Assembly (NCBI GenBank): GCA_023374045.1
Contig: CM041782.1
Location: 189,242,925 to 189,306,924, forward strand
Length of the DNA stretch: 64,000 bases
From: Limonium bicolor
Taxonomy: Eukaryota; Streptophyta; Magnoliopsida; Caryophyllales; Plumbaginaceae
Reading direction: 5' to 3'
Below are positions 12,647-60,889 of the stretch, in pieces. The translations under genes and the position numbers were made by a program. The notes under the pieces were generated by a model. The model made no database searches, had not been told where the DNA came from, and was given only the letters and a program-made list of their open reading frames with translations. Position 1 is the stretch's first letter. Every line of letters starts with the position of its first letter.

Positions 12647-13460
12647 TGAAATACCCCAAACCTAGGTATGTTGTTTAAACATTAAAACATGATTTACTAA
12701 GACAAGAAAATGTCTTAGAAACATTAGTAAACAAATTTAAACAAAAGAAAACACAAATGTGCTTTAAAGTCAATAAGAGCTAAAATGTGCTCTAAGCTTG
12801 GAATAAGCTTGGGTAAGACCTAATGAACTTACCAAGACCTTATTTATATATTAATGAATATATTAAATCAATTACCAAAGAAAACCAAGCTTGAAAACAA
12901 GTTAAAACACAAAATGTGCTTTAAGAAGTCTTAAAGCACATTTTTGAAAAATTGTCTTGTAAATGAGTTTTGAGTGGCTAAATGTCCATCATTACTCTTA
13001 AATATATATGTGTACTATATAGTATCACATTTGGGTGGCTATATTAATGGGAAATCAAAAATTTCACTTCTAAGTGCCTTGTTTTGGTGAATAGTGATTT
13101 TTATAAGCTAGTTTGTAACACATGTTGTCATAAGTAATTAAATTGACAAACAAAGACAAAAATACCCTCATTATATTATAGGGGGCCGTTTTCTAAGTGT
13201 GGTGACTCACCACTCTCTAGTTAATATGATAAGTAAATAAAGAAAACTAATTAAGTTACCTTTTTACTTTATAAAGCATAAATATCTCCTAAAAGTAAGT
13301 TCTATCTTCATTCTCTCATTTCTCCTTCATTTCCCACGGTTCCAAACACCATCTTCAACCTCTCTTCTTCATTCTCTCACGGTTTGCAATAGTACACACC
13401 ACCATCTCCATCTTTGACCTCTTGTAAAATCTAGCTCACTTGTCCAAATCAAAAACAAAC
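12647..13460 (+). repeat. 5' LTR of A1, first 814 bp, cut by an assembly gap
   Basis: It starts TGAAATACCCCAAACC and follows the start of the 3' LTR at 19858 with many substitutions and indels. Shared blocks include ATGTGCTCTAAGCTTGG, AATTACCAAAGAAAACCAAG and GAAAAATTGTCTTGTAAATG. By eye it is at least as close to LTR A2 at 45027. Sequence stops at the N run. Confidence 0.8.
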
Positions 13461-13960
13461 NNNNNNNNNNNNNNNNNNNNNNNNNNNNNNNNNNNNNNNN
13501 NNNNNNNNNNNNNNNNNNNNNNNNNNNNNNNNNNNNNNNNNNNNNNNNNNNNNNNNNNNNNNNNNNNNNNNNNNNNNNNNNNNNNNNNNNNNNNNNNNNN
13601 NNNNNNNNNNNNNNNNNNNNNNNNNNNNNNNNNNNNNNNNNNNNNNNNNNNNNNNNNNNNNNNNNNNNNNNNNNNNNNNNNNNNNNNNNNNNNNNNNNNN
13701 NNNNNNNNNNNNNNNNNNNNNNNNNNNNNNNNNNNNNNNNNNNNNNNNNNNNNNNNNNNNNNNNNNNNNNNNNNNNNNNNNNNNNNNNNNNNNNNNNNNN
13801 NNNNNNNNNNNNNNNNNNNNNNNNNNNNNNNNNNNNNNNNNNNNNNNNNNNNNNNNNNNNNNNNNNNNNNNNNNNNNNNNNNNNNNNNNNNNNNNNNNNN
13901 NNNNNNNNNNNNNNNNNNNNNNNNNNNNNNNNNNNNNNNNNNNNNNNNNNNNNNNNNNNN
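13461..13960. other. Assembly gap, exactly 500 N
   Basis: Unsequenced. The partner LTR is about 4.2 kb and only 0.8 kb of 5' LTR is present before the gap, so the real missing sequence (LTR rest, primer site, leader, gag N-terminus) is probably near 4 kb and the 500 is likely a placeholder. Confidence 0.95.
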
Positions 13961-14394
13961 AGGGGGAGACTGATCCCGCCAAGCTTGAGGCGTACATCTC
14001 CGAGCTGGAGACCGCCTTCGAGACCCTTGATGTCCCTGCTGGGATCAAGGTGCGCTTAGCTGCTTTCTACCTGAAGGGGGCGGCGGGCGATTGGTGGAAG
14101 CTGGTGAGGGCCGAGCATGTGGCCAACCCAGAGTTCGGCTGGGAGCAGTACACCGCCTTGCTACGGGCAAAGTACTACCCCGCCCATGTCCAGACGAAGA
14201 AGCGCTTGCAGTTAGATGCGCTTAAGCAGTCGGACAAGATGACGGTGGACGAGTATTACTCAGAGTTCACCGCCTTGCTCCGTCTTCTGCCAGGTCTAGG
14301 GTATTCTGACCAGATCTTGGTAGACCGCTTCTATGGCGGGCTTAGCCATCGACTCCGCTACGGCATGGGGCCGACTAGTTACACTACCTTGCAG
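13961..14394 (+). CDS. A1 Gag, capsid-type domain (exon 1, N-terminus missing in the gap)
   Basis: This is the retrotransposon gag (PF03732-type) domain that forms the particle core. The frame enters from the gap and reads DPAKLEAYISELETAFETL, then FYLKGAAGDWWKL, YYPAHVQTKKRLQLDAL and MTVDEYYSEFTALLRLLPG, the usual order of this family. It is GC-richer than the flanking LTRs. At 14394 the frame reaches TTGCAG|GTAATA and, if unspliced, stops at 14416-14418. Joining to 14479 continues Gag in frame, so a splice donor is inferred at 14395. The true start codon is not visible. Confidence 0.9.
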
Positions 14395-14478
14395 GTAATA
14401 AGAATGATTGAGAATTGAGTAAGTGATGAATAAGATTTAGATTGTGATGAATAAGTGACTAATACCATGGAAAAGCAG
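14395..14478 (+). other. Putative intron 1 of A1 (84 bp, in gag)
   Basis: GTAATA...AAGCAG interval, AT-rich against GC-richer flanks, with in-frame stops. Removal joins ...TTG CAG to GAG TGC and keeps the Gag frame (phase 0). Confidence 0.7.
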
Positions 14479-14730
14479 GAGTGCTATCATGCCGCTGCTA
14501 AGGTTGAGATTACCGTCCAGCTGAGGGACGAGGAGAATGCAAAGCGGAAGAGTGCTGGGAAGAGCTCAGAGAGTCAAGGGCAAGGAGGGTACAAGAAACA
14601 AAGTACCAGCCTCAAGCCCAGAAAAATCAGAACCCGAAGGGGAAGGAGGGAAAGGAGAAGGCTCCGGAAGAGCCATTGAAGCTGACATATGCTTATGCAG
14701 CTACACCCCTGCGCTCTAAGGCGCCGAAGG
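14479..14730 (+). pseudogene. A1 Gag linker (exon 2), basic and Gln/Lys-rich
   Basis: It joins the capsid-type domain to the zinc knuckles. It reads AAAKVEITVQLRDEENAKRK, then a Lys/Gln/Pro-rich stretch and LKLTYAYAATPLRSKAPK before the donor at 14731. The frame shifts once near 14590-14600, in an A-rich run (AAACAAAGTACC), as if one A were missing. Low-complexity basic linkers before CCHC knuckles are usual in plant Ty3 Gag and fit nucleic-acid binding. If unspliced at its 3' end, translation would run into stops in the next interval. Confidence 0.75.
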
Positions 14731-14808
14731 GTAAGGAATTGGTATTACATAGTTAAGAAACAACTAGTGACCATTTGAGATGTGAATATTGACATTGTAA
14801 ATGATCAG
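14731..14808 (+). other. Putative intron 2 of A1 (78 bp)
   Basis: GTAAGG...GATCAG, AT-rich with in-frame stops. Removal joins AAG G to GA TCT (phase 1) and carries the Gag frame into the zinc knuckles. Confidence 0.7.
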
Positions 14809-15147
14809 GATCTGAGACTGAGAAAGGAGCCGGTGGTGGCTACCATCGACGCTACATTTGTAGATGGTGTCACAAGGACCACCCCGGGCTCGACTGTAAG
14901 GGGAACAAAGTAGAGTGCAACTTCTGCGGAGTACTTGGACACCGAGCATATGAGTGCTACGGGAATCCAGAGAGTAAGAATTTCAGACCCAGTTTCAAAG
15001 TTAAGGCAAGGCTGATCAGGGATCTGGATCTGACGGTCAGAGGAGGGGCAACCAGCTGCAGACAAGAACCCAAGGGTGACCCAGAAGACGGGCCCACCCT
15101 ACACATGGTGGATCGGGACGATGAGCCTGAGCCCTCATCGAGGCCAG
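14809..15147 (+). CDS. A1 Gag nucleocapsid region with two zinc knuckles (exon 3)
   Basis: Two consecutive Cys/His knuckles bind the element RNA during packaging. The first is CRWCHKDHPGLDC (CX2C...H...C) at about 14862-14900, the second CNFCGVLGHRAYEC (canonical CX2CX4HX4C) at about 14919-14960. They follow a Gly-rich stretch (EKGAGGGYHRRY). The exon continues with an acidic tail (VDRDDEPEPSSRP) up to the donor CCAG|GTACCA at 15148. The frame is uninterrupted over 113 codons. Unspliced, it would end eight codons into the next interval. Two knuckles are unusual, since many plant Ty3 Gags have one. Confidence 0.88.
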
Positions 15148-15279
15148 GTACCACTATAACTATTTAGTAATAAAACTACCTGCTTACCGCATTATCATGC
15201 ATGTTTGGTGAAATATATGAGTTAAGTAAAATAAGATGAGACTAGAACCTAAGTAAGATATAACCTACTACCACTCTAG
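15148..15279 (+). other. Putative intron 3 of A1 (132 bp, before AlkB)
   Basis: GTACCA...CACTCTAG, AT-rich, stops in all frames. Removal joins CCA G to GA AAA TTC (phase 1) and opens the frame into the AlkB domain. Confidence 0.72.
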
Positions 15280-16023
15280 GAAAATTCAACATCTGCTACC
15301 CTATACCATCTACACCTAACCCGGAGCACACCGACATCGAAACCACACGCTTTCCAACCGAACAATGTCAGGTTATCCGCCCAGGTATGATTTTATTAAG
15401 GGGATACCTGACACCCGACGCACAAATAGCCATCATCAGGAGATGCAATCAACTAGGAATGGGACCGGGAGGTTTTTACACACCGGAGTACCCAGGGGGA
15501 GCAAGGATGAAATTAAAGATGATGAGCTTGGGCAAGGATTGGAATCCGTATGCCAAGAATTACCAAACCACAAGGGAGCAAGATGGAGTCTCACCACGGG
15601 GATACCCGAAGAGTTCCATCCAGTTATTACACAAGTCGTGGAAATCGCTCAGCAGTTGGAAGCTGAACCGATTCCAGACATCCAGCCAGACATTTGCATT
15701 GTAAACTTCTACGAAAAAGATGGAAAACTGGGACTACACCAGGATAAGGACGAGACAACGGAGTCTCTCGAGAAGAGGGATACCCGTAGTGTCTTGGTCC
15801 ATTGGAGATGATGCGGAATTTTTATACGGCGAGCAGAAGCGTGCGGACCGTGCCCCAGATAAGATAATACTTAAGTTAGGTGATGTATTAATTTGGGAGG
15901 AGAATCAAGGATGTTGTACCATGGGATTAAGAGAATCAAGCTGAATACAGCACGTCAGCAGTAATCAATGCGACGCATATGAGGCCAGGAAGATTAAACC
16001 TAACCTTTAGACATATTAGCCAT
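15280..16023 (+). pseudogene. AlkB-type Fe(II)/2-oxoglutarate dioxygenase domain inside the A1 polyprotein
   Basis: AlkB enzymes oxidatively remove methyl groups from nucleic-acid bases. After a ~30-residue linker the domain opens with VIRPGMILLRGYLTPDAQIA and LGMGPGGFYTPEYPGGARMK, an ALKBH1-like N-terminus. PDICIVNFYEKDGKLGLHQD follows, with the HxD iron ligands (His codon 15737-15739, Asp 15743-15745). Then come PVVSWSIGDDAEFLYG, GDVLIW, the second iron His in RMLYHGIKRI (15920-15922), and RLNLTFR (15991-16011) with the two Arg of the 2-oxoglutarate pocket. The fold is thus complete in order and length (~248 codons). The frame breaks four times (near 15600, 15775, 15897 and 15948), each explicable by one missing G or C in or next to a short run. 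It sits between the Gag knuckles and protease, flanked by putative introns 3 and 4. The domain call is sure; host-gene capture is inference. Confidence 0.93.
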
Positions 16024-16216
16024 GTAATGTTAGAATGAGATGAGAAATGAGATGTAAGATTGAAGCACATGTTGTAAACAGGATGGTCATGAATAAAATA
16101 ACAGTGTTGTTCATATAAATTGTTACGACTCTTGTTATACCATCAATACTCATGGAGCTTGTGAATACAATTAGGTTATGGACTCGGTACGGAAGGTGCA
16201 TTAAGCATACTCACAG
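16024..16216 (+). other. Putative intron 4 of A1 (193 bp, after AlkB)
   Basis: GTAATG...CTCACAG, AT-rich, with stops. Removal joins AGC CAT to AGG CAC (phase 0) and leads into the protease leader TQAGTILTGTF in frame. With intron 3 it isolates AlkB on its own exon. Confidence 0.65.
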
Positions 16217-16740
16217 AGGCACAGGCCGACGCAAGCGGGTACTATCCTCACCGGCACCTTTCCGATCATGGAATTGAGGCATCAGTCCTCTTCGACTCAG
16301 GGGCCTCGCATACCTTTATCTCTGCATCATTTGCGAGCAGGTTGGGGCTAGACGCTGATGAGCTACCCGACTTCACGGTTACGCTCCCGTCTAAGGAGAA
16401 GGTTCGTTGCACTCGTTATTACCGAGGAGCCACCATCAGAATTAAGGGGGAAGACTTCCCAGTCAGTTTCATTGAGTTCAGCAAGCTAGGATTTGATGTT
16501 ATCTTCGGGATGAACTGGTTGGAGCGGCACAAGGGACGTATCCTCTGCGCCGAGCATAGATTGCTGCTCAGGAGTCCGTCTGGGGTAACAATATCATACC
16601 GCCAGAGGCCCAGAGAGCCTTCGACTAAGATCATCACCGCCATGGCAATGCATAGAGAATTAAGGAGAAAGGAAGAAGTATACCTCTGCTATGTACAGGA
16701 CATAGAGAGAGACCCGAGTTCGACCCCGACTTACCGGTAG
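16217..16740 (+). pseudogene. A1 aspartic protease
   Basis: A retropepsin-like protease that would cut the Gag-Pol polyprotein. It reads TQAGTILTGTFP, then the active site in ASVLFDSGASHTFISASFA (DSGA at about 16290), DFTVTLPSKEKVRC, and the conserved FDVIFGMNWLERH near 16490-16530. One base appears missing near 16272 (C run) before the active-site frame, and another near 16711, after which translation stops at 16738-16740. The DSGASH signature and the order protease-RT are those of Ty3 elements. No separate start codon is needed, as it is part of the polyprotein. Confidence 0.9.
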
Positions 16741-17640
16741 TGTCGGAGTTCCCCGACTTATTCCCACGGGAACTGCCCGGCATGCCACCCACTCGGGAGG
16801 TAGAGTTCACCATTGAGCTGCTACCTGGTACCGGACCGATAGCCAAAGCACCATATCGTATGGCTCGGCAGAAATGACTGAGTTAAAAGAACAACTGAAA
16901 GATTTGTTGGATAAGGGATTCGTTAAGACCAAGTGTGTCACCATGGGGGAGCGCCAGTCCTCTTCGTGAAGAAGAAGGATGGTAGTCTCCGCCTCTGCAT
17001 CGACTACAGAGAGCTGAATGCAGTGACAGTGAAGAATAAGTACCCACTACCCCGCATTGACGATCTGTTCGATCAGTTGAAGGGAGCATCTGTGTTTTCC
17101 AAGATTGATCTCAGATCGGGGTATCATCAGATAGCCATTAAGGAGGGAGACATTGAGAAGACGGCATTCCGGACACGATACGGCCACTACGAGTTTACAG
17201 TGATGCTGTTCGTTTGTCGAACGCGCCAGCGAAGTTTATGGATCTGATGAACCGCTTGTTCCGGGAGCAGCTGGACAAGTCGGTGGTGGTTTTTATTGAT
17301 GATATTTTGATATATTCAAAGTCTAAGGTTGAGCATGAGGAACATTTGAGGAGGGTGTTGGAAATATTAAGGGAGAACCAGCTATATGCTAAGTTCTCCA
17401 AGTGTGAGTTTTGGCTTGACCAGGTCTCTTTCCTAGGTCATGTCATCTCAGATGCTGGGATCGCAGTGGATCCAGCAAAGATTGATGCCGTACGTACCTG
17501 GCCAAGGCCGAAGACTGTTACCGACATCAGGAGCTTTCTCAGTCTGGCAGGTTACTACAGGAGATTTGTTAGAGATTTCAGCAAGGTCGCGAAGCCGATG
17601 ACCAGTCTGATGAAGAAAGATGCACCATTTCTATGGACAG
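16741..17640 (+). pseudogene. A1 reverse transcriptase
   Basis: It copies the element RNA into DNA. Successive blocks are recognisable in three frames: [74 protein letters not shown], then [14 protein letters not shown] with the catalytic FIDD at 17292-17303, and [18 protein letters not shown] with [17 protein letters not shown]. Frame changes near 16870, 16933-16950 and 17205-17215 interrupt it. The first reflects a lost G, the second pair look like extra A bases, and the third is a small scramble in the conserved MPFGL block. Order and spacing are those of chromovirus RT. Confidence 0.93.
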
Positions 17641-18150
17641 TTGACTGTGAGAGATCATTTCAGCGCTTGAAGGACTCATTGACCACTGCACCGGTATTGA
17701 CTATTCCAGACGGTACAGAGGGCTTTGAGGTTTATTGTGATGCATCCGGCAGAGGGCTGGGTTGCGTGCTCATGTAACATGGCAAGGTGGTGGCATATGC
17801 CTCACGCCAGTGAAGAAACATGAGGAGAACTACCCCACACATGATTTAGAGCTGGGAGCTGTAGTCTTCGCTTTGAAGATATGGCGCCACTACTTATACG
17901 GGGTTAGTGTCACGATCTACACCGATCACAAGAGTTTGAAATACATATTCACTCAGAAGGAGTTAAATCTTCGACAGAGGAGATGGTTAGAATTTCTGAA
18001 AGACTATGACATTGACCTCCAATACAAAGAAGGGAAGGCCAATGTTGTAGCAGACGCCCTGAGCCGTCGAGCACACTCACTCCATTCACTAGTTTCTTTC
18101 TCCAGCTTGGTGATGAGGTGCGAGAGGCTCAGAGGACTGATGAGTATATG
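17641..18150 (+). pseudogene. A1 RNase H
   Basis: It degrades the RNA strand of the RNA-DNA hybrid. It begins around [16 protein letters not shown] (first catalytic Asp in YCDAS), with [20 protein letters not shown] (Glu) and [20 protein letters not shown] (second Asp), ending [20 protein letters not shown] and DALSRR, the usual border with integrase. A true stop codon TAA lies at 17774-17776 where the family has Gln, so a C-to-T change is likely. A further lost base follows near 17808. After 18090 the frame shifts again. The stop is good evidence that this copy is not only affected by indels. Confidence 0.9.
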
Positions 18151-19010
18151 AGAGAGGTCAGACAGAAGCTGACAGATGGTACCTTTGAGAGTCAGAAATA
18201 CGACTTCAGACTTCATGATGATGATCTGATCAGACTTAAGGGCCGATTATGCATACCACAAGGGTAACACGGATCTGAAAGACCGTATACTTAGAGAATC
18301 ACACTGTTCTTCAGTTTCCATCCATCCGGGGGCCTCTAAAATGTATAAAGACATGAATAGATACTTCTGGTGGTCGGGAATGAAGACAGATGTTACCGAG
18401 TTCGTCTTGAGGTGTCTCACATGCCAGAAGGTGAAATTCGAGCACAGACGACCGGGCGGAATGGTACAGTCGATGCCAGTTCTGGAGTGGAAGTTCCATG
18501 ATATCTCCATGGACTTCGTAGTTGGGCTTCCACCTGCTAGGGGAGGTCTCAACATGATATGGGTGGTGGTGGATCGCCTTACCAAAGTAGCCCGATTCAA
18601 CCGATGAAGGATACTTGGAAGGTGACCAAATTAGCTGAGTTGTTTGAGAAAGAAATCATGAGGCATCACGGCACACCAAAGACCATAGTGTCAGATAGAG
18701 ATACCAGATTCCTTCGAGGTACTGGAGAGCTACCAGAGAAGCGTTGGGTATAGAACTCAAGCTGAGTACCGCGTTCCATCCTCAGACAGATGGTCAGACT
18801 GAGCGTACTATTCAGACACTCGAGGACATGCTGAGAGCATGTGCCTTAGACTTCCAGGGCAGTTGGATTGACAGATTGCATCTGATCGAGTTTTCATACA
18901 ACAACAGCTATCACGCTTCGATCAAGATGGCACCTTTTCAAGCGTTGTACGGTAGACCATGTCGTACACGCTCTGCTGGGATGAGTCGAGTGAGACGGTC
19001 ATCATAGGAC
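18110..19010 (+). pseudogene. A1 integrase: zinc-binding and catalytic core
   Basis: It inserts the cDNA into the genome. The H2C2 zinc-binding part shows two His in ILRESHCSSVSIHPG (about 18295-18330) and CLTCQKVK (about 18415). The core follows: first Asp in HDISMDFVVGLPP (18512-18514), second in TIVSDRDTRF (about 18690), and Glu in FHPQTDGQTERTIQTL (18801-18803). FSYNNSYHASIKMAPFQALY marks the C-terminal border. Frameshifts occur near 18265, 18598 (one C lost), 18715 and 18960. The same segment at the window start (C) is similar but distinct, so the two belong to different families of one lineage. Confidence 0.92.
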
Positions 19011-19548
19011 CAGAGTACTTAGAACAAGTTAAGGCTGAAGTTCAGCAAATCAGGGAGAACATGAAAGCTGCTCAAGATAGGCAGAAGTCGTATGCTGATG
19101 TTCGACGACGAGACCTAGAGTTCGCAGTGGGCGACCGGGTATTTCTGCGAGTATCACCGATGAAGGGTGTATTCAGGTTTGGGCAGAAGGGCAAGTTAAG
19201 CCCGAAATTTGTTGGTCCTTATGAGATTACGGAGCGGGTGGGCCCGGTTGCTTACAGGTTGAATTTACCTGCTGAGCTGGGTAAAGTGCATGATGTCTTT
19301 CATGTTTCACAGCTGAAGAAATACATGCACCACCCCTCCCATGTGTTAGAACCTGAGGGTTGACTTTAGAACCAAACATGAGATCCGTGGAGACTCCTCA
19401 GAGAATCTTGGACAGAAAGACTAGGGACACTCGCCACAAGTCAGTGCGACTGGTGAAGGTTCTCTGGTCTAACCAGGATGTCGAAGAGGCCACGTGGGAA
19501 TTAGAGGATAAGATGAGGGCGAAGTACCCTTCTTTATTTACTGACTAG
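18959..19548 (+). pseudogene. A1 integrase C-terminus and chromodomain
   Basis: It contains ENMKAAQDRQKSYADVRRRD, the GPY/F module (KLSPKFVGPYEITERVGPVA), VFHVSQLKKY and HVLEPEG. After one lost base near 19362 it continues TPQRILDRKTRDTRHKSVRL and the chromodomain core LVKVLWSNQDVEEATWELED, ending MRAKYPSLFTD with the stop at 19546-19548. The Tyr/Trp/Trp pattern is of the reduced chromodomain type common in plant chromoviruses and supports Tekay/Del placement. This closes the polyprotein; about 300 bp of 3' leader follow before the LTR. Confidence 0.9.
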
Positions 19549-19821: not shown

Positions 19822-19857
19822 GAACTTTGAGGACAAAGTTCTTTTAAGGGGGTAGAT
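19822..19857 (+). promoter_or_regulatory. Pre-PPT hairpin and PPT of A1
   Basis: An 8-bp hairpin (GAACTTTG, loop AGGA, CAAAGTTC) at 19822-19841, then TTTTAAGGGGGTAGAT directly before the LTR TG at 19858. Confidence 0.85.
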
Positions 19858-21416
19858 TGAAATACCCCAAACTTAGATATGGTGTTTAAATGATATAAAC
19901 AAGAAATAAGAAGGCTAAATAATGCCTTAGAAACATTAAGAACATTTCTAATCAAAGAAAATATAAGGAAACACCAAAAGAGCAGTTTAAGTAAAAATGT
20001 GCTCTAAGCTTGGAGAGACATGGGAGAGTACCCAAATATTGTTCTAAGACCTTAGTAATATCCTAATGGTCATTTTAAGTCAATTACCAAAGAAAACCAA
20101 GCTTGAAAACAAGTTAAAAACAAAAATGTGCTTTAAGGAGTCTTAAAGCACGTTTTTGAAAAATTGTCTTGTAAATGTGTTTTGAATGGCTAAATGTCCA
20201 TCATTACTCTTTAATTAATATGTGTACTATATAGTATCACATTTGGAGGTCTATATCAATGGGAAATCAAAAATTTCACAACAATGTGCCTTGTTTTTGA
20301 TGAATAGTGAATTATTAAGCTAGTTTATAACATAAGTCTATATAAGTGAGACATTTGGTCAACAAAGACTTAATTACCCTCATTAATAAAAGGGGGCCGG
20401 TTTCTTAGGAGGTGAGTCATCACCCACATGAGTCATTAAGCAATAAGAGAGCAAATGAGAGTTATAAAGTAAAACCACTATTCACCTTTTACATAAAATA
20501 CACTTTATTAGTTCTCTCTCCTCACTTCTTCATTTTCTTTGCTTTCCCACGGTTTGAACTGCTCTCTTTCTCTTCTCCATTCACGTAGAGCTGACCCCCA
20601 TGAAAGCTCCATCTTCCCTTGGCCACATCTTGCTCATTTTAGCTCCAAATCCAAAACAAAATACATATTCTTCTTAGTTAGCTCAAGCTCCTCCTTTCTA
20701 TCTTTTCAAAACTTCAAGAGCTTCATTTTGGTGCCAAGTCAAACCACCATTAGAGGAGGAAATTCAAGTTTGGAGACTCCATTGACATCTCCATCTCTTA
20801 AGGTAAAGAAAGTGTAAGAAAATCTAGGTTTCCACCATTTTCTTCACATAACCCAAAATATATACTCATGGGACTCCATGTTTATGCCTTGTTCTAGCTT
20901 GTTTCTACTCTTCAAAGGGGAGAGGAGGTCCTTCTTGCTTCAAATCCAAGTTGTCTTGAGAAACCAAGGTAAAACAATCACATTAATACCTTAAACATAT
21001 TTTTAAACCTAGGGTTTGTTCCTTAGGGTTAATGTGTTATCTAGTACTCATTGGAGTCATTGGATATTGGTTAGAACATTGGCAAGGAGAATCACATGGT
21101 GACCGAGATTGAACAAAGAAAACCTAAGGAGAAAAGCTTTAATCTTGTGAGAAAACAAGGTAAATTACTTACCTTAAGGTGTCTTGTTGTTTAAGGGAAT
21201 GAGATGTGGGTATATGATGAGTTTAGTGTAGAGTTTATATTGGGAAGGTGCTATAAAACCTAGGAGAAACAATGACTATTCTTGTGAACTTGTGACTAAG
21301 GAGCACATGAGGAAAAAGAGATAGTTTAAGAAGTTAAGGTGAAGTACAAGAAGCATTCTATTCAATGGGAGCCTTGTTGAGTGTATGTGCAGGTTGAAGG
21401 TTGCAGGTGAAGGCAT
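19858..21416 (+). repeat. 3' LTR of A1, left part (before the CACTA insertion)
   Basis: It starts TGAAATACCCCAAACTT right after the PPT and is interrupted at 21416 by the CACTA element, then resumes at 30586. Joined length is about 4.19 kb. It holds AT-rich sequence, a CT-rich stretch near 20500-20640, and several AAGGTAAA blocks. The 92-codon frame at 20539 has no domain. Confidence 0.88.
21414..21416. repeat. CACTA target-site duplication, left copy (CAT)
   Basis: CAT directly left of the CACTA terminus and again at 30583-30585. A 3-bp duplication is the rule for this superfamily. Confidence 0.9.
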
Positions 21417-22853: not shown

Positions 22854-23188
22854 GGTTAGTTTTTATGTTTTATTTGTTTTATTTTTTAATTCTTCATAAA
22901 TTTACATGTGCCAGTTGTTTGAATGTTTTCTGGTTGTATGAGTTTGGTCAGTGCTCAATAATAAGCACGGAAGAGTAACATTATTCATAGGTCATGCCAA
23001 ATTTTTTCTAGAAATGCATTAGTTATTGATAATTCTCCAAAATAATAAGAACCACTTAGTTGTAATGTATATATACGATCACATACCAAAGTTATGATGA
23101 TTATTATCTGCACAATTATTAGTCATTGTAGTGTGGATGAAAATAAATCTAAAATATTTGTTTTGAACTTTCATCTAATGTGGATAGA

Positions 23189-26100
23189 ATGGACCGTGGA
23201 TGGATGTACGGTCAAAGAGGGAACTATTTTGAAAGTAAGGTGGATAACGAATTTTGCAAAGTGGCACTCGAACATCAGAAGAGGATGAACGAGACACATA
23301 TTCCTTGTCCTTGTGCTCAGTGCGAACTTCGAAATAAGTTCCCTAGCTTACACACAATCAGATTCCACCTTTCAAGGCGTGGGTTTATGCCGAACTATAA
23401 AATATGGTTCTTACATGGCGAGTGTGCAGAAGCTAGTAGTAGAGTACAATCTTCAAGTCAGTGTAATAGCGACGTAAGGACGGAAATCATTGTTGACACA
23501 ATCGCCAACACCGAGCGTGATCAGACTGACATTGAAATCAGCGATGACGGTGATAATGTTGAACAATGTGACCCAATACTCCAAGATGTTGAAGATAATT
23601 TCACTGACAAGCCAGCTGTGTATCAAAGATTGATTGACGCATCACGGATGCCTCTGTTTCCCACATGTGGCAAATATACGAAATTGACATCCGTGCTTCA
23701 CATGTTCAACCTGAAAGCAAGATTTGGCTTGAGTGACAAGAGTTTCACTGCACTGCTCGAACTCTTCCACGACATGCTGCCAGATGATAATGTACTCCCT
23801 ACTTCGACTTATGAGGCGAAGAAGCTCATGTGTCCTATGGGGGTGGAGTATGAAAAAATACACGCATGTCCAAACAGTTGTGTATTATACAGAGGAGAGA
23901 ACGCACATTTGGATCAGTGTCCAAAATGTAACATGTCACGTTATAAACAGAAGGACAGACAACCTTCTAGACCCCAAAAAAAAATCCTCCGGCGAAAGTG
24001 ATATGGTATTTACCCATAATACCAAGATTCAAGCGTTTGTTTGCAAATGTTAGAGATGCTAAAAATTTAAGGTGGCACGCAGAAGGAAGAAGAAAAAAGG
24101 ATGACAAGTTGAGACATCCCGCCGATTCACCACAATGGAACAACATCAACAGAAGATTTAGTTATTTCGCAGATGACAACCGAAATTTGAGGCTTGGATT
24201 GTGTACTGATGGCATGAATCCGTATGGCACACTAAGCAGCCAACACAGTACTTGGCCAGTTCTACTGGTGATCTACAACCTGCCTTCGTGGTTGTGTATG
24301 AAACGGAAATACATAATGTTATCGTTGTTGATTTCTGGACCGAAACAACCGGGAAATAATAGAGATGTCTTCCTTGCACCGCTGATTGATGATTTGAAAT
24401 TGTTGTGGAATGAAGGAGCAATGGTGTATGATGCCTACGGCAGACAAAATTTCACACTACGAGCTATGTTGTTTTGCACAATCAATGACTTTCCTGCATA
24501 TGGAAACTTATCTGGGTATACAGTGAAAGGCGCATTTGCTTGCCCAATATGTGAGGATGACACTTGTTCTGATCGTCTAAAGCATTGCGGGAAGAACATT
24601 TACATGTGTCATCGTAGATTCCTACCAATGACGCACCCATATCGTAGAAAAAAAGAGTTGTTTAATGGAAAGTATGAGAAACGTGTGGCCCGTGTCCCTT
24701 TGATTTCTGAACAGATATATGAAAAGGTGAAAGACATTGAGAACGTGTTTGGTGATACGTCAAAGTCTGCCCAAAAGAGCATTTGGAAAAAATATTCAAT
24801 ATTCTGGGAACTTCCGTACTGGAAGCATTTACCAGTTAGACATTGTCTAGATTTTATGCATATCGTGAAGAACGTTGGTGAGGCATTTGTCGGGACATTG
24901 CTTAACATACCTGGTAAAACCAAAGATGGAATAAAGGTTCGTAAAGACATGGTAGCTATGGACATACGTCATGAGCTACATCCTCAAGAAAGAGGCAACC
25001 GGACATATCTACCTCCAGCCTGTTACACGTTGTCTAAGAATGAAAAAATCAGTTTTTGCAAGTGCCTTGTTTCTGTTAAGGTCCCTACAGGGTATTCTTC
25101 TAACTGGAAAAATCTGGTGTCAATGAAAGATCTAAAGTTGGTAGGGTTGAAGTCCCACGATTATCATGTTCTGATGCTACACCTCCTCCCCATTGCCATT
25201 CGGGGTATATTGCCGTTAAATGTCAGAAATGTTATCACAAGGTTGTGTTTCTTTTTAAATGCGGTGTGCAACAAAGTTGTTGATGCTGATACGCTAGACA
25301 GTTTGCAGCGTGATGTTGTCGTGACACTCTGCCAATTAGAAATATATTTTCCACCATCATTTTTCGATATCATGGTCCACTTAGTTGTGCATGTTGTTCG
25401 AGAAATTAAAGAATGTGGTCCTATATATCTGAGATACATGTATCCATTTGAACGATATATGGGAATTCTGAAGGGAAGAATGAAGAACAGATATCGACCC
25501 GAAGGGAGCATTATAGAAGGGACAACTACTGAGGAGGTGACAGAATTTTGTTCTGAATACCTGAAAGGGGTCGAAGCTATTGGAGTGCCACAAGGTGCGC
25601 ACCCCGGTGGGTCAGAGGGTGAAGGTGTTATTGGGAAAAAAATCGTGGCCATTGACTCATCGTTCATGGAGTTAGCCCATTTATTCGTTTTGCATCATCT
25701 CGAGATTGTTGAGCTATTTTTTGAACAGCACATGAGTGAACTAAGAGCTCAAAATCCAGGAAGAAATTTGGTTTGGTTAACGAACGAGCAGAACAAAACG
25801 TTTTGTATGTGGTTTAGACATCATGTCATGAGACTAGCATCAGTAGAACCTGCTAAAGTTAGTGAAGAGATTCGTTGGTTAGCTATGGGACCCGGTTATA
25901 CTGTTATATCTTATGAAGGCTATGATATCAATGGGTTCACCTACTGCACAAAGCGACATGATGACAAATGTTTGAATCAGAACAGTGGTGTGAAAGTTGA
26001 AGCAACTACCACTGAATATGACAGATGTGATCCAACTTCAGTTACTTCAACTTCAAGTTGGTATTATGGTTTTATAGAAGACATATGGGAACTTGATTAT

Positions 26101-26471
26101 CATTTTCAAAAGTTTGTGACATTCAAATGTAAATGGGTGGAGAATAGGCATGGTTATCGGGTTCTTGATGGGTTTACCATGGTTGATCTGACACGACTTG
26201 GGCCCCTGATAGATACATTTATATTTCCAAAGACTGTGAACAAGTATTTTACATTCAAGACCCGGTCGATTCTAGATGGTCAGTGGTTTTACCTGGAAAA
26301 AGATTTGTCAACTCAGATGTTGATCAAACTGAAGATGATGAAGCGCTATTTGATGAGACTCCGCCGTTTTCAAACAACCTTCCTGTCGCAGATACTGATA
26401 CACGACCGAACGATGTAGTTTATGCTAGGTCAGATCATGATGAGGGTTTGTGGATTGACAAACAAAAATGA
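23189..26471 (+). pseudogene. CACTA TNP2-family transposase (two frameshifts)
   Basis: Cuts and joins the element ends. ATG at 23189 (MDRGWMYGQRGNYF) opens the transposase-associated N-terminal domain with CPCAQCELRNKF (residues ~1-75). An acidic linker and the TNP2 domain (PF02992-type, ~155-600) follow, with CPNSCVLYRGEN, CPKCNMSRYK, LRLGLCTDGMNPYGTLSSQH, SGPKQPGNNRDVFLAPLIDD and HCLDFMHIVKNV. DUF4218-like (LHLLPIAIRGILP, YLRYMYPFERYMGILKG) and DUF4216-like (YYGFIEDIWELDYH) parts come next, ending RSDHDEGLWIDKQK at 26469-26471. The frame changes in a nine-A run at 23976-23984 and near 26238 (one G apparently missing). About 1090 codons, full family length. The AATAG before the ATG could be a splice acceptor. 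Confidence 0.95.
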
Positions 26472-45026: not shown

Positions 45027-47100
45027 TGAAATACCCCAAACCTTGATATATTGTTTAAATGTTAAACTATGGTATATAAAGGCTAAAAGTGTCTTAGAAA
45101 CATCAGTGAACAATTTAAACCGTAGTAAAACACAATAAAGCACTAAGACATAGCTTGAGCAAAAACATGCTCTAAGCTTAGAGTGAACTTGGTTGGGACC
45201 CAAAGAGCCTACCAAGACTAATAAAATTCAATTATGATTTAATAAGGCTAATTAAGTCCTTAGGAAACCTTGGTAGACAATTAAACCAAATAAAACGCAA
45301 TGAATACCTTAAAGTCAATATGGGCAAAAATGTGCTCTAAGCTTGGGATAAATTTGTATAAGACCTAAAGTCATACCTATACCTTATAATATGTTAATGA
45401 ACATATTAAACCAATTACCAAAGAAAACCAAGCTTGAAAACAAGTTAAAACACAAAATGTGCTTTAAGGAGCCTTAAAGCACATTTTCGAAAAATTGTCT
45501 TGTAAATGAGTTTTGAATGACTAAATGACCATCATTACTCTTTAATTAACATTTGTACTACTTAGTATCACATTAGGAAGTCTAAATGAATGGGAAATCA
45601 AAAATTTCACATCTATGTGCCTTGTTTTAGTGAATAGTAACTATTATAAGCTAGTTTGTAACATATGTTATTGTAAGTTATGTTATTGGTCAACAATGAC
45701 CAAAACACCCTTAGTATTAAACGGGGGCTGGTTTTTGCAAGGGATGAGTCATTCCCCTTGTTAGTTAAATAAGAAAAGTAAAACTTATAAAGTAATGTAC
45801 TATTTTGCTTTTATACATAAATATCCTAACAAGAGCACTCTCTCACCTCATTCTCTTCTTCCCTTTTCATTTCCCAGGTTGTCTATCTCCTTCCTCCTCT
45901 CTCCATCGGTTTTCTACAGCCATATACAATTCTCCATCTTGGAATACTTGTAACTTATGATTCCATGCTCCAAAATCAATTTCAAGACTACCTTTGTCTT
46001 AGTTAGATCAAGCTCTTCATTTCCCTCTTTTCAAATCTTCAAGAACTCAATTTGGTGCCATGGAGATTCACCATTGAAGGAGCTTGAGCTCATATTTTCA
46101 TGACTTGTCATTCTCTTATGCTTCAAGGTAAGGAAAATCAAAGAAAAACCATGTTTCCTCTCATTTTGGTACATGTCCGAAAATTCACCTCACAATGGTG
46201 TTTTGTCTTGCTCTCTTCTTAGCTTAATTCAAACTTCAAAGGACTAGGAGGAGTCCTACCTTGCTACTTAACCAAGTTCTCTTTCAAATTCAAAGGTAAA
46301 TATCATTTTAGTGTATTAAAAACACTTATGTTAAACTAGGGTTTGTATATGAGTTTAAGTGTGAATTCTTAAGCTCATTACCCTTATATGTATATTGATT
46401 AGAAAGTTGACAAGGGATCAAACTCCTTGCTGATTTTCGGTTTAAGGAAACAAGAAAGAAGTTTGAGAGGAAAAGAGGTAAACAAACTATCTCAAGGTAG
46501 TTTAAATGCCTTAGGAAAATGAGCTTGATTTGTTGATAAAATACCTAAGGAGCCAATGGTGAATGACCTAGTAAAATGCTCTCAAGGAAACTATTAAGGG
46601 GCATATGTGATGCTGAGTGTATTTGCTGGTTAAAGGCAATATATTATGTGGGAAATTCAGTGTTAAAGGTTTATGTTATTTAAGGGCCTAAGAGCCAAGT
46701 TATTTAAGGGCCTAAGTGCCAAGCAATTTAAGTTTATGCACTATATTGTGATGTAGTGTAAAATTTGGTGAGTGTTGTGTGTGAGAATACTCTTGATGGA
46801 TTTTAGGTGTTCTTGAATGAATTAAGGTACAAACCTAAGTGTTTGGATGTGAGAATATACAAGGGAAGCTATGGCAAAATTTGGAAAATGTATAAGAAGT
46901 TCTAAGTTTTTAAATGAGTTTTTGGTGAACTAGGAAGTGTTAAAGATGAACAAGTGTTTTACTAGGGAAGAAAGCATGTATTAAGGTGATTTAGAGTGAT
47001 ACAAGGATTTAGGCATTACTTGGAAGTTCTAGGAATTCAATGAGTGTTTTTGGGGAGTTTAACGTCTTGGAGAAGTTTGTTTAAGGTTTTAGGTAATGTT
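45027..47100 (+). repeat. LTR A2, A1-family, 5' half, interrupted by element D
   Basis: It starts TGAAATACCCCAAACCTTG and follows the A1 LTR through AATTACCAAAGAAAACCAAG, GAAAAATTGTCTTGTAAATG and GGGCCTAAGTGCCAAGCA. It has an extra internal duplication of the CATGCTCTAAGCTTAG segment near 45165-45345. At 47100 element D begins, so the rest lies beyond the window. Confidence 0.82.
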
Positions 47101-47407
47101 TGAAATGCCCCTAAATAATTAAACGTTATTTAAAAAATAAATTACTACATTAAAGTATGAACCAACAATATTGACACGGTTACGTACGTATATATGTACG
47201 TATATATAACGTTACAACATTATAACGTTGTACATATATTTAGTAACGTTGTGATCGGAAACAGATAGTTAAAACATGGCAAATAAAAAAATAGTCAAAC
47301 CGTATAACGGTTTAAATCAACATCGCGACATAACATTAGTCGTTTATATATATATGTAAATACCAATATACAAGAATATACACAAATGGGACTGAAACAA
47401 AATAAAA

Positions 47408-47487
47408 GAGCAAATATGCTCTAAGCGGGATTCGAACCCGAGACCTCTCGTATCTATCCCGAAACTTAACCAATCGAGCTGAGCTCG
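47408..47487 (-). ncRNA. tRNA-like unit in the D 5' LTR (antisense)
   Basis: The B box GTTCGAATC is perfect within a T-arm CGGG/CCCG. The A-box region CAGCTCGATTGG is slightly off consensus. A hairpin GAGCA-TATT-TGCTC and TTTT follow on the minus strand. Same layout as in D1. Confidence 0.55.
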
Positions 47488-48699
47488 TTTTCAGTATAAA
47501 ACACCCACGAACTGTAATAAGTAATCACTATACATAAGTGACAGAAAGGAATGAAGAACAACCCGACATTCCCTGCTGGAATTGACGCCTCAATCTCTGT
47601 TATTTCAAACTCCCATACCGACACAACAGATTTATCTACAATACCTTGTAATCCCCTCTGTGCATGGGAATTATTTTTGCCAAACGCCCATCCCTTGAGG
47701 ATTCCAAGCGACCAACTGTCCATACCACCATGTTATAATCGGTTCCCTTCTCTTCTTCCTCCTCAGTACCTTCGCTTTCTCCAACTCCTACCGAGGGCTA
47801 CCACGACCTCCACGGCTGCTGCTCCACAGCTGGGTGAGTTTCTAAGTTTGAATTATACTCACTGACTCCTATGAGTTTTCATCTTCAAGAACTAAACCGT
47901 GTATGTACACACCAGCAGCAAAGATCGATATTGGGAGCTAGCACAGTGGGTAGCCTCGGTTGAAAGACAGAGAAGGAAGGGAAGTTAGCTTCCTTGTTTT
48001 CTCAAGGTAAAACCATACGAAACCCAGCTTAGATTTCACCTGCATTTCAGTAATAAACCCATCATGCAATAAGCTTCTACTCTCTGTTTTGTTTCTTAAG
48101 TAAACGTCACCATATTTTCACTCACGGTGGTACCGGTTACAGCCATAGCCAATCCTGAGTTCTTTTTCTCCCTTTCTGTCCCTCCTCATGTAGAAGACAG
48201 TAGATGGAGCTCAGCTTGGTGAAGGAGCAAGACCTAGCCATTCTTCCTTGCTGTACCAGTCTCGGAAAAAAAAAAGAAGCAAGGTAAAGTCCATACCTGT
48301 CTCAGTAATCCCACTGTGTCTTCCTTTCTGAGTTAACATAATTCTGATCTCTGAGTAAACTATCCCAGTATAGATGAACCGACCAGGAGCTGTGAGTCGA
48401 AATTTCCACCAAGGGTGTAACTAAGGGATTATCAAGTCTCTACTGGTGAGTCACTTCTAAACTCATGTAGATCAGAGAAACAGAAAGAAAATTAAATCTA
48501 GCAAGTTGATAAACATGCAAACCTGTAGCATGTAGCACCGGTATTTGAATGTCCTTGGGTTGCTATATACCTCATAATCCTATAATGTACCTGAACCAAT
48601 CTCTATCCGTAAGGGTGTTGAAGAAAAGAAGTAAAAACAGATCACAACCCAAGGAAAGAAAACAAACAGAAACAGATGTAGAAGTTCTGGTTTCGTTTC

Positions 48700-51420
48700 T
48701 GGTATAGTTTCTACTTCTGTTACAGTTCAGGTAGCTAACCCTTGCGATTGATAAGTGTTTCTAAGTTAAGACCTGAGAACCACTTACTTGATAGCTAGGC
48801 AATTAGGTTAGGGATGAGGATCAAATGGGTAAGCAGAAAGGCAAAACAAAAACGTAAAGAAACACAAATTTCAGACTATACTTATCAGTTCTAGTTTCTT
48901 ACCAGTTCAGCTCTGGCAATTTATACGTCAGTAATAAGGTGGTTTTGGGTTGTTCTTGAAGTCTGGAATCTAAATGAATTATTAGCCAAGTAGGTAAGTA
49001 GTTGGAAGGAGGTGTAGGTTGATCTAGGAAAAAAATGACAGAGAAGAAAAAACAGTAGGAACACATAGCATTCCTGTTTTAGTTTCAGTTTCAGGAACTT
49101 CTGTTTCTGTATAATAATGTCACAGAGAAGTAAAAAGGGCGGCAGTGAATAAGTGCAATAACTTAAAACATTATAAACCCACTCAACTAAGTATGTAAGC
49201 ATCCTGGAAAGGAAAGAAGAAACTGCAAGCCACGGTAAATTATCAGATAAGAGAATCTAGCAGTTTAGGATTCAGTTTCTGCCATACTAACCTTGCCTGT
49301 ATAATAACTCTCAGAAGTTTAAACAATGGGATGGTAAACCTATCTTGAATCTTTGGAACTTAAGAACTGCCACACCCTAAACTATCAGAGCTAATAGTGA
49401 GAGGAAACTGAAGAGCAATCCATGAGTAAAACAGAAAAGAAATAAACAGAAGAGCTAATCTGTTTGGGGCTCAAAGTTCTGAATCCTAACTTTCCTGTAT
49501 CACGACCTTTTGGGAGTTAAACGAGATGATGGGGGAAATCTGTTTTGAGAAGATTAAACCACACCAGGATACTTAACTAGCTGGCTAAACAACCAAGGAA
49601 CTAGGAATCTGATGAAAGGTCACAGAAAGGAAGACAGATAATAATTCCTGTTTGTCTGTTTGTATATCAGTTTCAGATTTTCTGGTTTTCTGTGGTGTAG
49701 GTAGCCTTAGTAACTCTAACTCAGTATCTTAAATTGTGTGAAGTTTAAACTGTATTGAAACTCCTAACTGAGAGTAACTAAACTGGGAAAAAATTAAGGA
49801 ATCAGGTGGCACGTTGCAGAGAGAATCAACCAGTTTCACATTTCTGTTTCTTCTTCTGTAACAACATAGGCTAAAAGTTTCTGTTTTAAGAATCCTGATT
49901 TCAGTAACACCGACAGTGTTGTCCTAATTCATCTGTAAACCTAGGAACCACTGAACATCAACATAATGATGAGAACCAACTAATACCTTGGGGCTGAGAT
50001 CAGAAGAAGAAGAAAAGAAAAACTGGTGTAAGAAGGAACTCAAAAACCTGAAATTTTCACTTCTGTGTAATGGTTTCCAGAAGCTTTGTAGATGCTAAAT
50101 TGATAAGCTGAGTATCCTAAGAACTCTGTAACACATTACATTAAGAGTGATGAGCTGGGGAAAAAGTTCAGGAACCAGGGGACACGAGACAAGGGAATCG
50201 GTCAACTTTACATGTCTGTTTTCGGTAACAGCATAGCCCAGTTCTGTGTGGATAGTTTCTGAGAAATGTCCTAACTGATTGAGGATTGGTTGTGAGGTAA
50301 AGTCAGGATAGACCATTAGCTGTTTGGGTAACTAATTCGGAGGAAAAAGGGAGTTAAATGAGTAATCACAAAGACAGACAGAAGAAGAATGAAACACCAG
50401 TTTTTGATGCAGACTGAGTTTAGTTTCAGTTTCTTAGCAGATAAGTGCCTAGCAATTCATGTGTTTGCAACAGACCTGTCTTGGGTTTTGTTTGGAGTTA
50501 AAGCTTGATGATAACTAGTGGGTAAAGAGTTAGGAGAAACGTAATCAGTTAAATAAAAAAAAAACAGATAAGGCAGAAAGCAAGAACACCTATCAGTGTT
50601 GATCTCAGACTGCTGTTCAGTACCAGTTTTTCTACCAGATTAGGGTCTGGTTGTCTTTTGTATCTGTAACAAGATGTCATGGGTCTAAGCTGGGTTTAGA
50701 AACCTAATTGTACACTTACCTAACTGGGACAACGGTTGGAGAGAACTGAGGGTCAACCACGTGAACAACAGAGGGTAATAAAACAAAAAAAACTGCAGTC
50801 TGGTTTCTATTTTGGTTTTAGTCTCAGAACTTGTTGCCTCTGTATAACTAAGCTGCAGGGAGTGTAAGCGAATGGCACTGAGTGATTAAGGAGTTTAAAA
50901 CCTAACTAATCTGTGTAACTGATAAGTGAAGCATGTTGGGAACCGACTTGCAACCAGCAAGGGGAGTTCAAAGAAAACCTGTGTAGATTTGGTACTTGCA
51001 ATTCCTACCGATCTAAGTTTCTGTTAGGTGAGTTTCCAGGAAGGGGAGCTTCATTGTTTTAAGTAGTTTGCAAGTTCAAATCATTCCTAACACAATCATG
51101 TAGTAGTGATGCAGTTTTGGGAAGTTGGAAACAAATCAATAAACCGAAATAAAGATTTGAGGGAGGAGTAAACAAACGATGCTTCAGCCTTCTTGTTCCT
51201 TCTGTTCAGATTCTACCCAGTCAAAATGGGGTTGTTTCTGTGTCTGTAACAGATTGAAATAACACCATGAAATGAGTACCAAACAGATGGGAAAGAGGGA
51301 GTGAAAAAGGAAACCAAATCCGGGAATGAGAAACAAAACAAAAGGGGAAAAATTCTAACAAACTTAATACATCAGTTCTAGCTGTTTTCTGAAATGAGTA
51401 ACTTCTGTATAAGCAAGTTC
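48700..51420. repeat. ~190-bp diverged tandem array in the D 5' LTR
   Basis: CTGTAT/CTGTAA landmarks near 48715, 49105, 49297, 49494, 49690, 49855, 50065, 50245, 50660, 50840, 51010, 51240 and 51405 give steps mostly of 160-210 bp. Same unit order as in D1. Confidence 0.6.
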
Positions 51421-53009
51421 ACAGGGGGTGTTTAAGTGGTTATGCAGTCATGAATCTAGTAATCTGTAGTGGGAATGGTGGATGGTGAGTTGAGTTGAGA
51501 AAGGAATTAGATATACATATATATGTAACCGATAACCAAACAAGTGTGAAAAGACCTTGGGTTATATCTTACCACAAGGTTTTGATATTATAAAATTAAA
51601 TGCCTACAATATATTATAAGTTATGTGGTAGTTTTGCGGGTAATGAAAATATATATAATAAAGGAGCTCAAATATGCACATGTGTATACCATTTTCGACA
51701 CATTCATAAGTGGCCAAAACTAGGTGTCATAAATCTAGTGACACATAAAATATCGTACCACATAACATTATGTAACAAACATAACACAAACAATATTATG
51801 TGGTTAAGAGTATAGTTATTCAAACTGTTATGCTAAATGCATACATACATAGATAAACACGTACCAAGAAGTAAAGTTATACACTATAGTTATAACTACA
51901 TAAAATACTAAGGTTAGTATAAGATTTTGGTCGATAAATAAACCCTGGTGAGGTATCATAAGTGTATAACGCAAGGTTTCATGCTCTAATGTAAACCGAA
52001 AATTAACTCACACGACGTGTGAGGGGTTTATAAAATAATAATAACGAGACTTTAACTAGTAACAAATGTTAAGCCTAGGGACATAGTACTAGGATTTCAA
52101 ACGTTATTCGGGAATACCGAATTGTGCTGTCATGTGGATTGACGCTTAGTGTTCCTTGTATTACTAGATCGTATTCCCGACGTACGCGCTCGAAAGCTCT
52201 AGTGGTCTGCACTGCACGAATCTAGTCATCGGTGTACGGTATGTAAAGGGATTTGATCCGAGTTGTCCTGAGGAATTCCTCGGGCTCGGATTTGTTTGAT
52301 AAATAACTTGTGTGAATGTATGTATGTGATGTATGTATGTGATGCATGTGTATGATGTAGTTATGTTCATTGCATTATTTATTTATGCACGAACGTCCTA
52401 CGGGACTAATACTACGTCGACTATAGATCGACTTATACAAAACTACATATGCGAAATGTGTGATTGTGACCACTGTTGCTTGACTTAATATGCTAATTAT
52501 TACAAGTACGTAGTTATAACCTAAGTAAAATACTTAGGAACGGGACACGACATTGTCGGTCTCTAGAGCTTTGACTCGAAAGTGAATGTTACCTAGAAAG
52601 ATTCTAGGCATGCGTAAGACCCATAGGGCAGCCAACAAATTAAGTGATGTACTCCATAACAAAAACTGTAACTGACTATCTAACTAACAAGCTAACAATG
52701 GAGTGTGTGAATGAATGTGATGATGTACCTTAATCCAGACAGTCACTGGCTGCTGGTCGCGCGTAGAGATCTCTTGGGTTATCCCGTTTCGGGTTTTCCC
52801 TAGTTAAATCCTGTTCGAGCCTAGATAGATCGTCAGGCGGAGTGTGCTACCGTTGGCACCAGGCCTTGGCCACCTAAATGGACGCCTTACAAAGGCAAAG
52901 TGAAGAAGAGCCCAGAGTCTTCGGATGATCAGGGCAGTGAGCACCTTGTGTGTACGTGGGACTACAGTCCAAGTGAATATAAATCGGGTTGTCCTAACTG
53001 ACTCCCAAC

Positions 53010-59292: not shown

Positions 59293-59599
59293 TGAAATGC
59301 CCCTAAATAATTAAACGTTATTTAAAAAATAAATTACTACATTAAAGTATGAACCAACAATATTGACACGGTTACGTACGTATATATGTACGTATATATA
59401 ACGTTACAACATTATAACGTTGTACATATATTTAGTAACGTTGTGATCGGAAACAGATAGTTAAAACATGGCAAATAAAAAAATAGTCAAAACCGTATAA
59501 CGGTTTAAATCAACATCGCGACATAACATTAGTCGTTTATATATATATGTAAATACCAATATACAAGAATATACACAAATGGGACTGAAACAAAAATAA

Positions 59600-59681
59600 A
59601 AGAGCAACTATGCTCTAAGCGGGATTCGAACCCGAGACCTCTCGTATCTATCCCGAAACCTTAACCAATCGAGCTGAGCTC
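59600..59681 (-). ncRNA. tRNA-like unit in the D 3' LTR (antisense)
   Basis: As at 47408-47487, with one C more (CCGAAACC) and a GAGCA-TAGT-TGCTC hairpin followed by TTTT on the minus strand. Confidence 0.55.
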
Positions 59682-60889
59682 GTTTTCAGTATAAAACACC
59701 CACGAACTGTAATAAGTAATCACTATACATAAGTGACAGAAAGGAATGAAGAACAACCCGACATTCCCTGCTGGAATTGACGCCTCAATCTCTGTTATTT
59801 CAAACTCCCATACCGACACAACAGATTTATCTACAATACCTTGTAATCCCCTCTGTGCATGGGAATTATTTTGCCAAACGCCCATCCCTTGAGGATTCCC
59901 AAGCGACCAACTGTCCATACCACCATGTTATAATCGGTTCCCTTCTCTTCTTCCTCCTCAGTACCTTCGCTTTCTCCAACTCCTACCGAGGGCTACCACG
60001 ACCTCCACGGCTGCTGCTCCACAGCTGGGTGAGTTTCTAAGTTTGAATTATACTCACTGACTCCTATGAGTTTCTCATCTTCAAGAACTAAACCGTGTAT
60101 GTACACACCAGCAGCAAAGATCGATATTGGGAGCTAGCACAGTGGGTAGCCTCGGTTGAAAGACAGAGAAGGAAGGGAAGTTAGCTTCCTTGTTTTCTCA
60201 AGGTAAAACCATACGAAACCCAGCTTAGATTTCACCTGCATTTCAGTAATAAACCCATCATGCAATAAGCTTCTACTCTCTGTTTTGTTTCTTAAGTAAA
60301 CGTCACCATATTTTCACTCACGGTGGTACCGGTTACAGCCATAGCCAATCCTGAGTTCTTTTTCTCCCTTTCTGTCCCTCCTCATGTAGAAGACAGTAGA
60401 TGGAGCTCAGCTTGGTGAAGGAGCAAGACCTAGCCATTCTTCCTTGCTGTACCAGTCTCGGAAAAAAAAAAGAAGCAAGGTAAAGTCCATACCTGTCTCA
60501 GTAATCCCACTGTGTCTTCCTTTCTGAGTTAACATAATTCTGATCTCTGAGTAAACTATCCCAGTATAGATGAACCGACCAGGAGCTGTGAGTCGAAATT
60601 TCCACCAAGGGTGTAACTAAGGGATTATCAAGTCTCTACTGGTGAGTCACTTCTAAACTCATGTAGGATCAGAGAAACAGAAAGAAAATTAAATCTAGCA
60701 AGTTGATAAACATGCAAACCTGTAGCATGTAGCACCGGTATTTTGAATGTCCTTGGGTTGCTATATACCTCATAATCCTATAATGTACCTGAACCAATCT
60801 CTATCCGTAAGGGTGTTGAAGAAAAGAAGTAAAAACAGATCACAACCCAAGGAAAGAAAACAAACAGAAACAGAAGATGTAGAAGTTCT

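Follow-up and report, generated by a model that had tools for sequence, protein, structure and literature searches.

An ALKBH1-type dioxygenase domain between Gag zinc knuckle and protease in a chromodomain Ty3/gypsy retrotransposon of Limonium bicolor

Introduction

Plant Ty3/gypsy elements carrying an AlkB-family dioxygenase have been described in the orchid Phalaenopsis, where the Gypsy_Pa_2799 family encodes a paALKBH5-like protein in ORF2 that acts as an m6A demethylase in vitro (Alvarado-Marchena et al. 2022, PMC9289625). The excerpted text of that report presents the family as Ogre/Tat-related, with a dual RNase H and with ORF2 lying apart from a single Gag-Pol ORF, and it found the ALKBH5-type domain in no other plant among 121 genomes. 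According to its discussion section, parasite-borne AlkB domains also occur in plant RNA viruses (flexiviruses, closteroviruses), which we liken to the present case by description and not by sequence, the carriers there being RNA viruses. The separation of products by splicing of one transcript is known from Ogre and EVADE elements, in which, as far as the excerpted sources describe it, the alternative exon comes without a captured enzyme (PMC6317226, PMC12786077). Sunflower Tekay elements possess an unrelated extra ORF on the 5' side, AlkB being unmentioned in the excerpted text (PMC11728184).

Here we describe an AlkB domain in a 64,000-nucleotide stretch of Limonium bicolor DNA, called the window below; all coordinates refer to it, and all features of the element and its LTRs lie on the + strand. 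The original prediction for this locus held that no LTR retrotransposon with an AlkB domain had been described, which the ALKBH5-type domain of the Phalaenopsis Gypsy elements, active in vitro, contradicts (PMC9289625, as excerpted). Among the open-licence PMC literature, searched by titles and abstract starts, we found no further report of an AlkB capture of the type seen here.

Results and Discussion

The AlkB domain lies on an exon-like stretch at 15280–16038 (E4), which is read in several frame pieces and ends with a stop codon at 16036–16038; its assignment as an ALKBH1-type 2OG/Fe(II) dioxygenase is based on PF13532, tblastn and phylogenetic trees. Two frame pieces match PF13532, at 15264–15701 (E 8e-6, 26.6 bits) and at 15320–15808 (E 1.8e-11, 45.1 bits), the first below and the second above the Pfam cut-off of 31.2 bits. 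Using the database protein P0003 as query, tblastn recovered 15387–15893 at 9e-49 and further pieces up to 16014 at 3.4e-31, and these scores together with those of PF13532 exclude a chance similarity. Reading from the sequence, the motifs follow each other in the expected order, with HxD at 15737–15745, the second His at 15920–15922 and RxNxxxR at 15991–16011, although they are spread over different frame pieces. The solved structure nearest by sequence is 5xeg/5xoi (1.5e-11), titled OsALKBH1, so that domain, motifs and nearest relative are all those of a plant ALKBH1-type protein. Judged from the sequence, the AlkB domain in the element is real, and the predicted arrangement of HxD, second His and RxNxxxR between CCHC knuckles and a DSGASH protease was borne out.

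The domain is part of a Ty3/gypsy LTR retrotransposon that spans 12647 to about 21087, with two LTRs and the order gag-PR-RT-RH-INT, in transposon-rich surroundings. The 5' LTR (12647–13460) is cut by an assembly gap and shows 79% identity to 19858–20423 over 572 columns (452 of them identical); the 3' LTR (19858–21087, end approximate) matches 12647–13213 as well as an LTR-like stretch at 45240–46415, and both LTRs start with TGAAATACCCC. A run of 500 N (13461–13960) covers the start of gag and the region of the primer binding site. The Gag capsid exon E1 (13961–14394), whose start lies inside the gap, is identified by Retrotrans_gag (2.6e-18) and Ty3_capsid (2e-11); E2 (14479–14730, one frame change) was assigned to gag by reading the sequence, and E3 (14809–15147, phase 1 at its end) carries a CCHC zinc knuckle recognized by eye, with a zf-CCHC score of 0.009 below the cut-off. 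Downstream of AlkB, E5 (16175–19548) encodes protease, RT, RNase H, integrase and a chromodomain, read with about 11 changes of frame and a single in-frame stop. Its protease contains DSGASH (RVP_2 1.9e-22), RT, RNase H and the integrase zinc-binding domain are supported by profile matches, and the chromodomain at the integrase C-terminus (PF00385 1.9e-6, above cut-off) marks the element as a chromovirus. A purine-rich stretch read directly before the 3' LTR (19846–19857) is likely to be the polypurine tract. The gag, CCHC and protease flanks and the LTR pair thus support the predicted location of an ALKBH1-type domain inside a Ty3/gypsy element. The element shares the order Gag-CCHC-PR-RT-RH-INT-chromodomain with Tekay-clade chromoviruses, to which, judging by its motifs, it presumably belongs.

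The LTR pair (12647–13213 versus 19858–20423) shows a K2P distance of 0.26 over 564 sites, and relative to this divergence the coding part looks intact, with one in-frame stop in pol and 54 of 58 conserved AlkB columns kept. No date was taken from the LTR pair, since the 500-N gap lies between gag and the 5' LTR and since the coding part looks too intact. The divergence lies far above what the state of the coding part suggests and, with the gap between them, the two LTRs may stem from different insertions. A diverged relative of the LTR is located at 45027–46415 (78% identity to the 5' LTR, 70% to the 3' LTR); a tblastn search with the element pieces found no internal element part beside it, and it is perhaps a solo LTR. 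At 2–745 the window also contains the 3' end of the pol region from a further Ty3/gypsy element with chromodomain, with an integrase C-terminal piece 68% identical and a Chromo match of 0.0044 (below cut-off).

In comparison to Gypsy_Pa_2799, the window element likewise is a plant Ty3/gypsy element with a host-derived AlkB-family 2-ODD domain including the cofactor motifs, and it is a candidate for a system working alike (PMC9289625, as excerpted). In contrast, its domain is of ALKBH1 type and lies between knuckle and protease, not in a separate ORF, its gag is interrupted by intron-like segments, and it carries a chromodomain unlike the Ogre/Tat lineage; demethylase activity of its AlkB is predicted. 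We modelled the structure of P0126, a database relative of the element AlkB (mean pLDDT 87.5), which gave target TM values of 0.91–0.93 to OsALKBH1, 0.82–0.90 to E. coli AlkB and 0.57–0.61 to ALKBH5 entries. The domain is thus not of the ALKBH5 type that defines the orchid family, and a common origin with it was rejected on the same values. As lineage, enzyme subfamily and position all differ from the orchid case, an independent capture is indicated, and the window AlkB was probably acquired independently of the orchid elements.

To place the domain among its relatives, a protein search with the AlkB piece gave 5 matches, a search with P0003 in an X-padded query gave 355 and an alignment-based search gave 7618 of 8000 scored, the best 120 being examined in each of the latter two. 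All of the best 120 of the 355 P0003 matches carry PF13532 and, PF21770 aside, none carries what we take to be a gag, protease or RT family. Six database sequences stand apart (P0001, P0002, P0003, P0004, P0126 and P0127), P0001 and P0127 being almost identical. Identity to P0003 is 60–78% for P0001, P0004, P0126 and P0127 and 47–57% for other proteins among the best 120 of the 7618; identity to P0126 is 54–67% within the family (P0002 over 32% of the query only) and about 55% for the best host protein. No relatives of the element AlkB were found in viral contigs and prokaryote genome contigs. A bacterial source was rejected, since P0126 matches rice ALKBH1 at 1.9e-75 and E. coli AlkB at 1.8e-20.

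In a tree of 55 rows (LG+G4 without mixture model), the six sequences and two unjoined pieces from the window form one clade (100/99) against 47 plant ALKBH1 host rows. The clade adjoins the conifer Cryptomeria on long branches, and this placement is unsure. The same clade was recovered in a fast tree of 243 rows from which P0002 was omitted, and in these trees, read as unrooted, the element AlkB does not group inside the host ALKBH1 genes (47 and 236 host rows). The original prediction had suggested such a tree as a check, and the separate clade is its outcome. A recent copy of one of the host genes tested is thereby excluded in both trees, and because the clade lies apart from the host rows, the element AlkB is not a near-identical copy of one host gene. 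Plant ALKBH1 proteins (OsALKBH1, 5xeg/5xoi; 'ALKBH1B/C/D' in database names) have the same fold and catalytic motifs, whereas the element AlkB differs from them by its separate clade (100/99) and by its linkers, of which the N-terminal one is dissimilar and the one preceding the HxD strand is shorter. Retroelement context is seen in the window copy, the six relatives being known from protein sequences alone.

This last point bears on the alternative that a single element copy trapped part of an AlkB gene, which is useless to the element. The window copy is the sole one seen in retroelement context and is broken as assembled, and the excerpted report of a screen of 121 plant genomes saw 2-ODD domains in Phalaenopsis alone (PMC9289625). 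Against a useless passenger stand the deep clade apart from the host rows, the phase-matched intron-like segments flanking AlkB and the conservation of the domain. Scored among 40 aligned proteins, five of them from the element-like family, the window pieces carry the commonest residue in 54 of the 58 columns conserved at 95% or more, in 32/44 of those at 80–95%, in 12/52 at 50–80% and in 14/61 below 50%. We regard such a passenger as unlikely and a function of the element AlkB as likely.

How broken the copy is depends on the quality of the assembly. The reading of AlkB needs five frame segments in three frames, that of pol (16175–19548) twelve with the one in-frame stop, and gag one frame change, in total about 16 frame changes in about 5.2 kb of element exons (about 3 per kb). 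As a control, the repeat 47101–51796 was compared with 59293–64000, giving 1 mismatch and 19 gap openings in 4714 columns; 15 of the 19 gaps are single bases and nearly all are short. Most of them are to be taken as assembly errors, because true mutation yields more substitutions. The resulting gap rate of about 2 per kb per copy comes close to the frequency of frame changes in the element, which suggests that many of the latter are assembly errors. Counter-evidence is an unbroken transposase frame of 815 codons at 23971–26418, so that the view of a dead element is weakened by the control repeat and favoured by this frame. The frame belongs to a CACTA-type transposase at 23153–26418 (Transpos_assoc, Transposase_21, DUF4218). 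The direct repeat itself (at least 4.7 kb, 99.47% identity, reaching the end of the window) probably represents the LTRs of a young giant element.

Three intron-like segments precede the AlkB exon: segment 1 (14395–14478, 84 nt, GC 0.298, phase 0), segment 2 (14731–14808, 78 nt, GC 0.308, phase 1) and segment 3 (15148–15279, 132 nt, GC 0.318). The three gag exons have a GC content of 0.585, 0.540 and 0.549. All three segments have GT-AG ends and at least 3 stops in the incoming frame, and the phases agree at every join. Another AT-rich segment (16039–16174, GC 0.324), recognized by base composition, lies before the protease acceptor. Splice sites were scored with a rough matrix. Among 101 donors the modelled ones take ranks 2, 3 and 8, and among 203 acceptors those of gag take ranks 6 and 2, whereas those of AlkB (37) and protease (35) are both weak; our model makes no use of the highest-scoring donor, 15385 within AlkB, or of the highest-scoring acceptor, 14395. 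A dipeptide LG precedes the AlkB domain in all three sequences that reach its N-terminal border (window, P0001, P0126), and in the window it coincides with the TAG/G acceptor.

The original prediction had placed AlkB in one frame with knuckles and protease after intron removal, as part of a single Gag-AlkB-Pol chain. For this, the introns on either side of AlkB would be removed constitutively and the protease would cut the chain. It would fit that AlkB shares the orientation of the knuckle before it and the protease after it and has an AT-rich segment on either side, and indel errors in the assembly could mask an in-phase join. Nevertheless, besides the five segments in three frames, AlkB in the window closes with a stop of its own, and the two GT donors that lie between the end of the domain and this stop (16024, 16029) are both out of phase with the protease acceptor. 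The relatives agree with this, as all four sequences reaching the C-terminus (window, P0003, P0126, P0127) terminate a few residues past the domain; P0001, P0002 and P0004 stop before it. The phase-1 end of the knuckle exon E3 is compatible with both the AlkB exon and the protease exon. Because of the AlkB stop, the out-of-phase donors and the relatives ending after the domain, we prefer alternative 3' exons, with separate Gag-AlkB and Gag-Pol, to the one chain, which we consider rather improbable.

We therefore suggest the following model, in which splicing, packaging, substrate and benefit to the element are what we infer. Long ago, a chromodomain Ty3/gypsy element would have acquired the catalytic portion of a gene of plant ALKBH1 type and kept it as an exon between Gag zinc knuckle and protease. 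Joined to the AlkB acceptor, the phase-1 donor that follows the knuckle would yield Gag-AlkB, ending at the AlkB stop; joined to the protease acceptor, the same donor would skip AlkB and yield Gag-Pol; the packaged RNA would be unspliced, by which the introns are retained in new copies. Gag-AlkB and Gag-Pol as alternative products are thus predicted from exon phases, in likeness to Ogre and EVADE (PMC6317226, PMC12786077, as excerpted). Gag-AlkB might enter the particle along with Gag, holding the demethylase on the element RNA, single-stranded cDNA or RNA:DNA hybrid, where it could remove N6-methyladenine or other methyl adducts that impede reverse transcription or on which host control relies. 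ALKBH1 is described as acting on 6mA where DNA is single-stranded or unpaired, and the human enzyme on RNA too (PMC10469495, as excerpted), a preference that suits the intermediates of reverse transcription. In Arabidopsis, according to an excerpted source, m6A keeps ONSEN RNA in stress granules, from which it is released by ALKBH9B (PMC12786077). A counter-defence role of the element AlkB is plausible.

An old capture with alternative Gag-AlkB and Gag-Pol products and an AlkB acting on the element's own nucleic acid is the reading we favour, at a confidence just short of even. Several points count against it: as assembled the copy is broken, pol containing one in-frame stop; it is the sole copy seen inside a retroelement; the acceptors of AlkB and protease are weak, and the highest-scoring donor and acceptor are left aside; indel errors could disturb the exon phases; and the position beside Cryptomeria rests on long branches. 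The enzyme could also be directed at the host, with 6mA or Polycomb marks of its chromatin as targets, or repair alkylation damage, instead of serving the element's own nucleic acid. In rice, ALKBH1 binds to chromatin and acts as an antagonist of PRC2 (PMC10469495), and plant-virus AlkB has been proposed as a repair enzyme in the discussion of PMC9289625, both as given in the excerpted texts; in contrast, the fusion to a knuckle would favour the element's own RNA, and we judge host targets or repair to be quite improbable. Least probable of all is that the clade represents a host gene family of unusual kind and that nesting or misassembly brought a host gene or pseudogene beside element parts in the window: the 500-N gap in the element, the many indels and six relatives known without genomic context would allow it, but there is no gap within 13961–19548, gag-CCHC-AlkB-PR-RT-INT are colinear there and the junction phases fit.

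Conclusion

In summary, the window contains a chromodomain Ty3/gypsy element with an ALKBH1-type domain between Gag zinc knuckle and protease. In its most specific form, our favoured model says that a chromovirus lineage captured an ALKBH1-type adenine demethylase, in an event separate from that in the orchid Ogre-related elements, and uses it as an alternative 3' exon; a Gag-AlkB eraser would enter the particle and clean element RNA and single-stranded cDNA, and skipping of the exon would give Gag-Pol. In this completeness we put it forward tentatively and with more doubt than belief. From the nearness of AlkB to the nucleocapsid, and from the alternative use of its exon or that of the protease, follow predictions that are testable by RNA data alone. 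If true, there would be a second independent AlkB capture, from another subfamily and by another lineage, making the orchid case part of a pattern, and both together would mean that LTR retrotransposons have come to encode erasers of their own by convergent evolution. Such elements would then be evolving to escape a control point, the adenine methylation of their RNA or cDNA.
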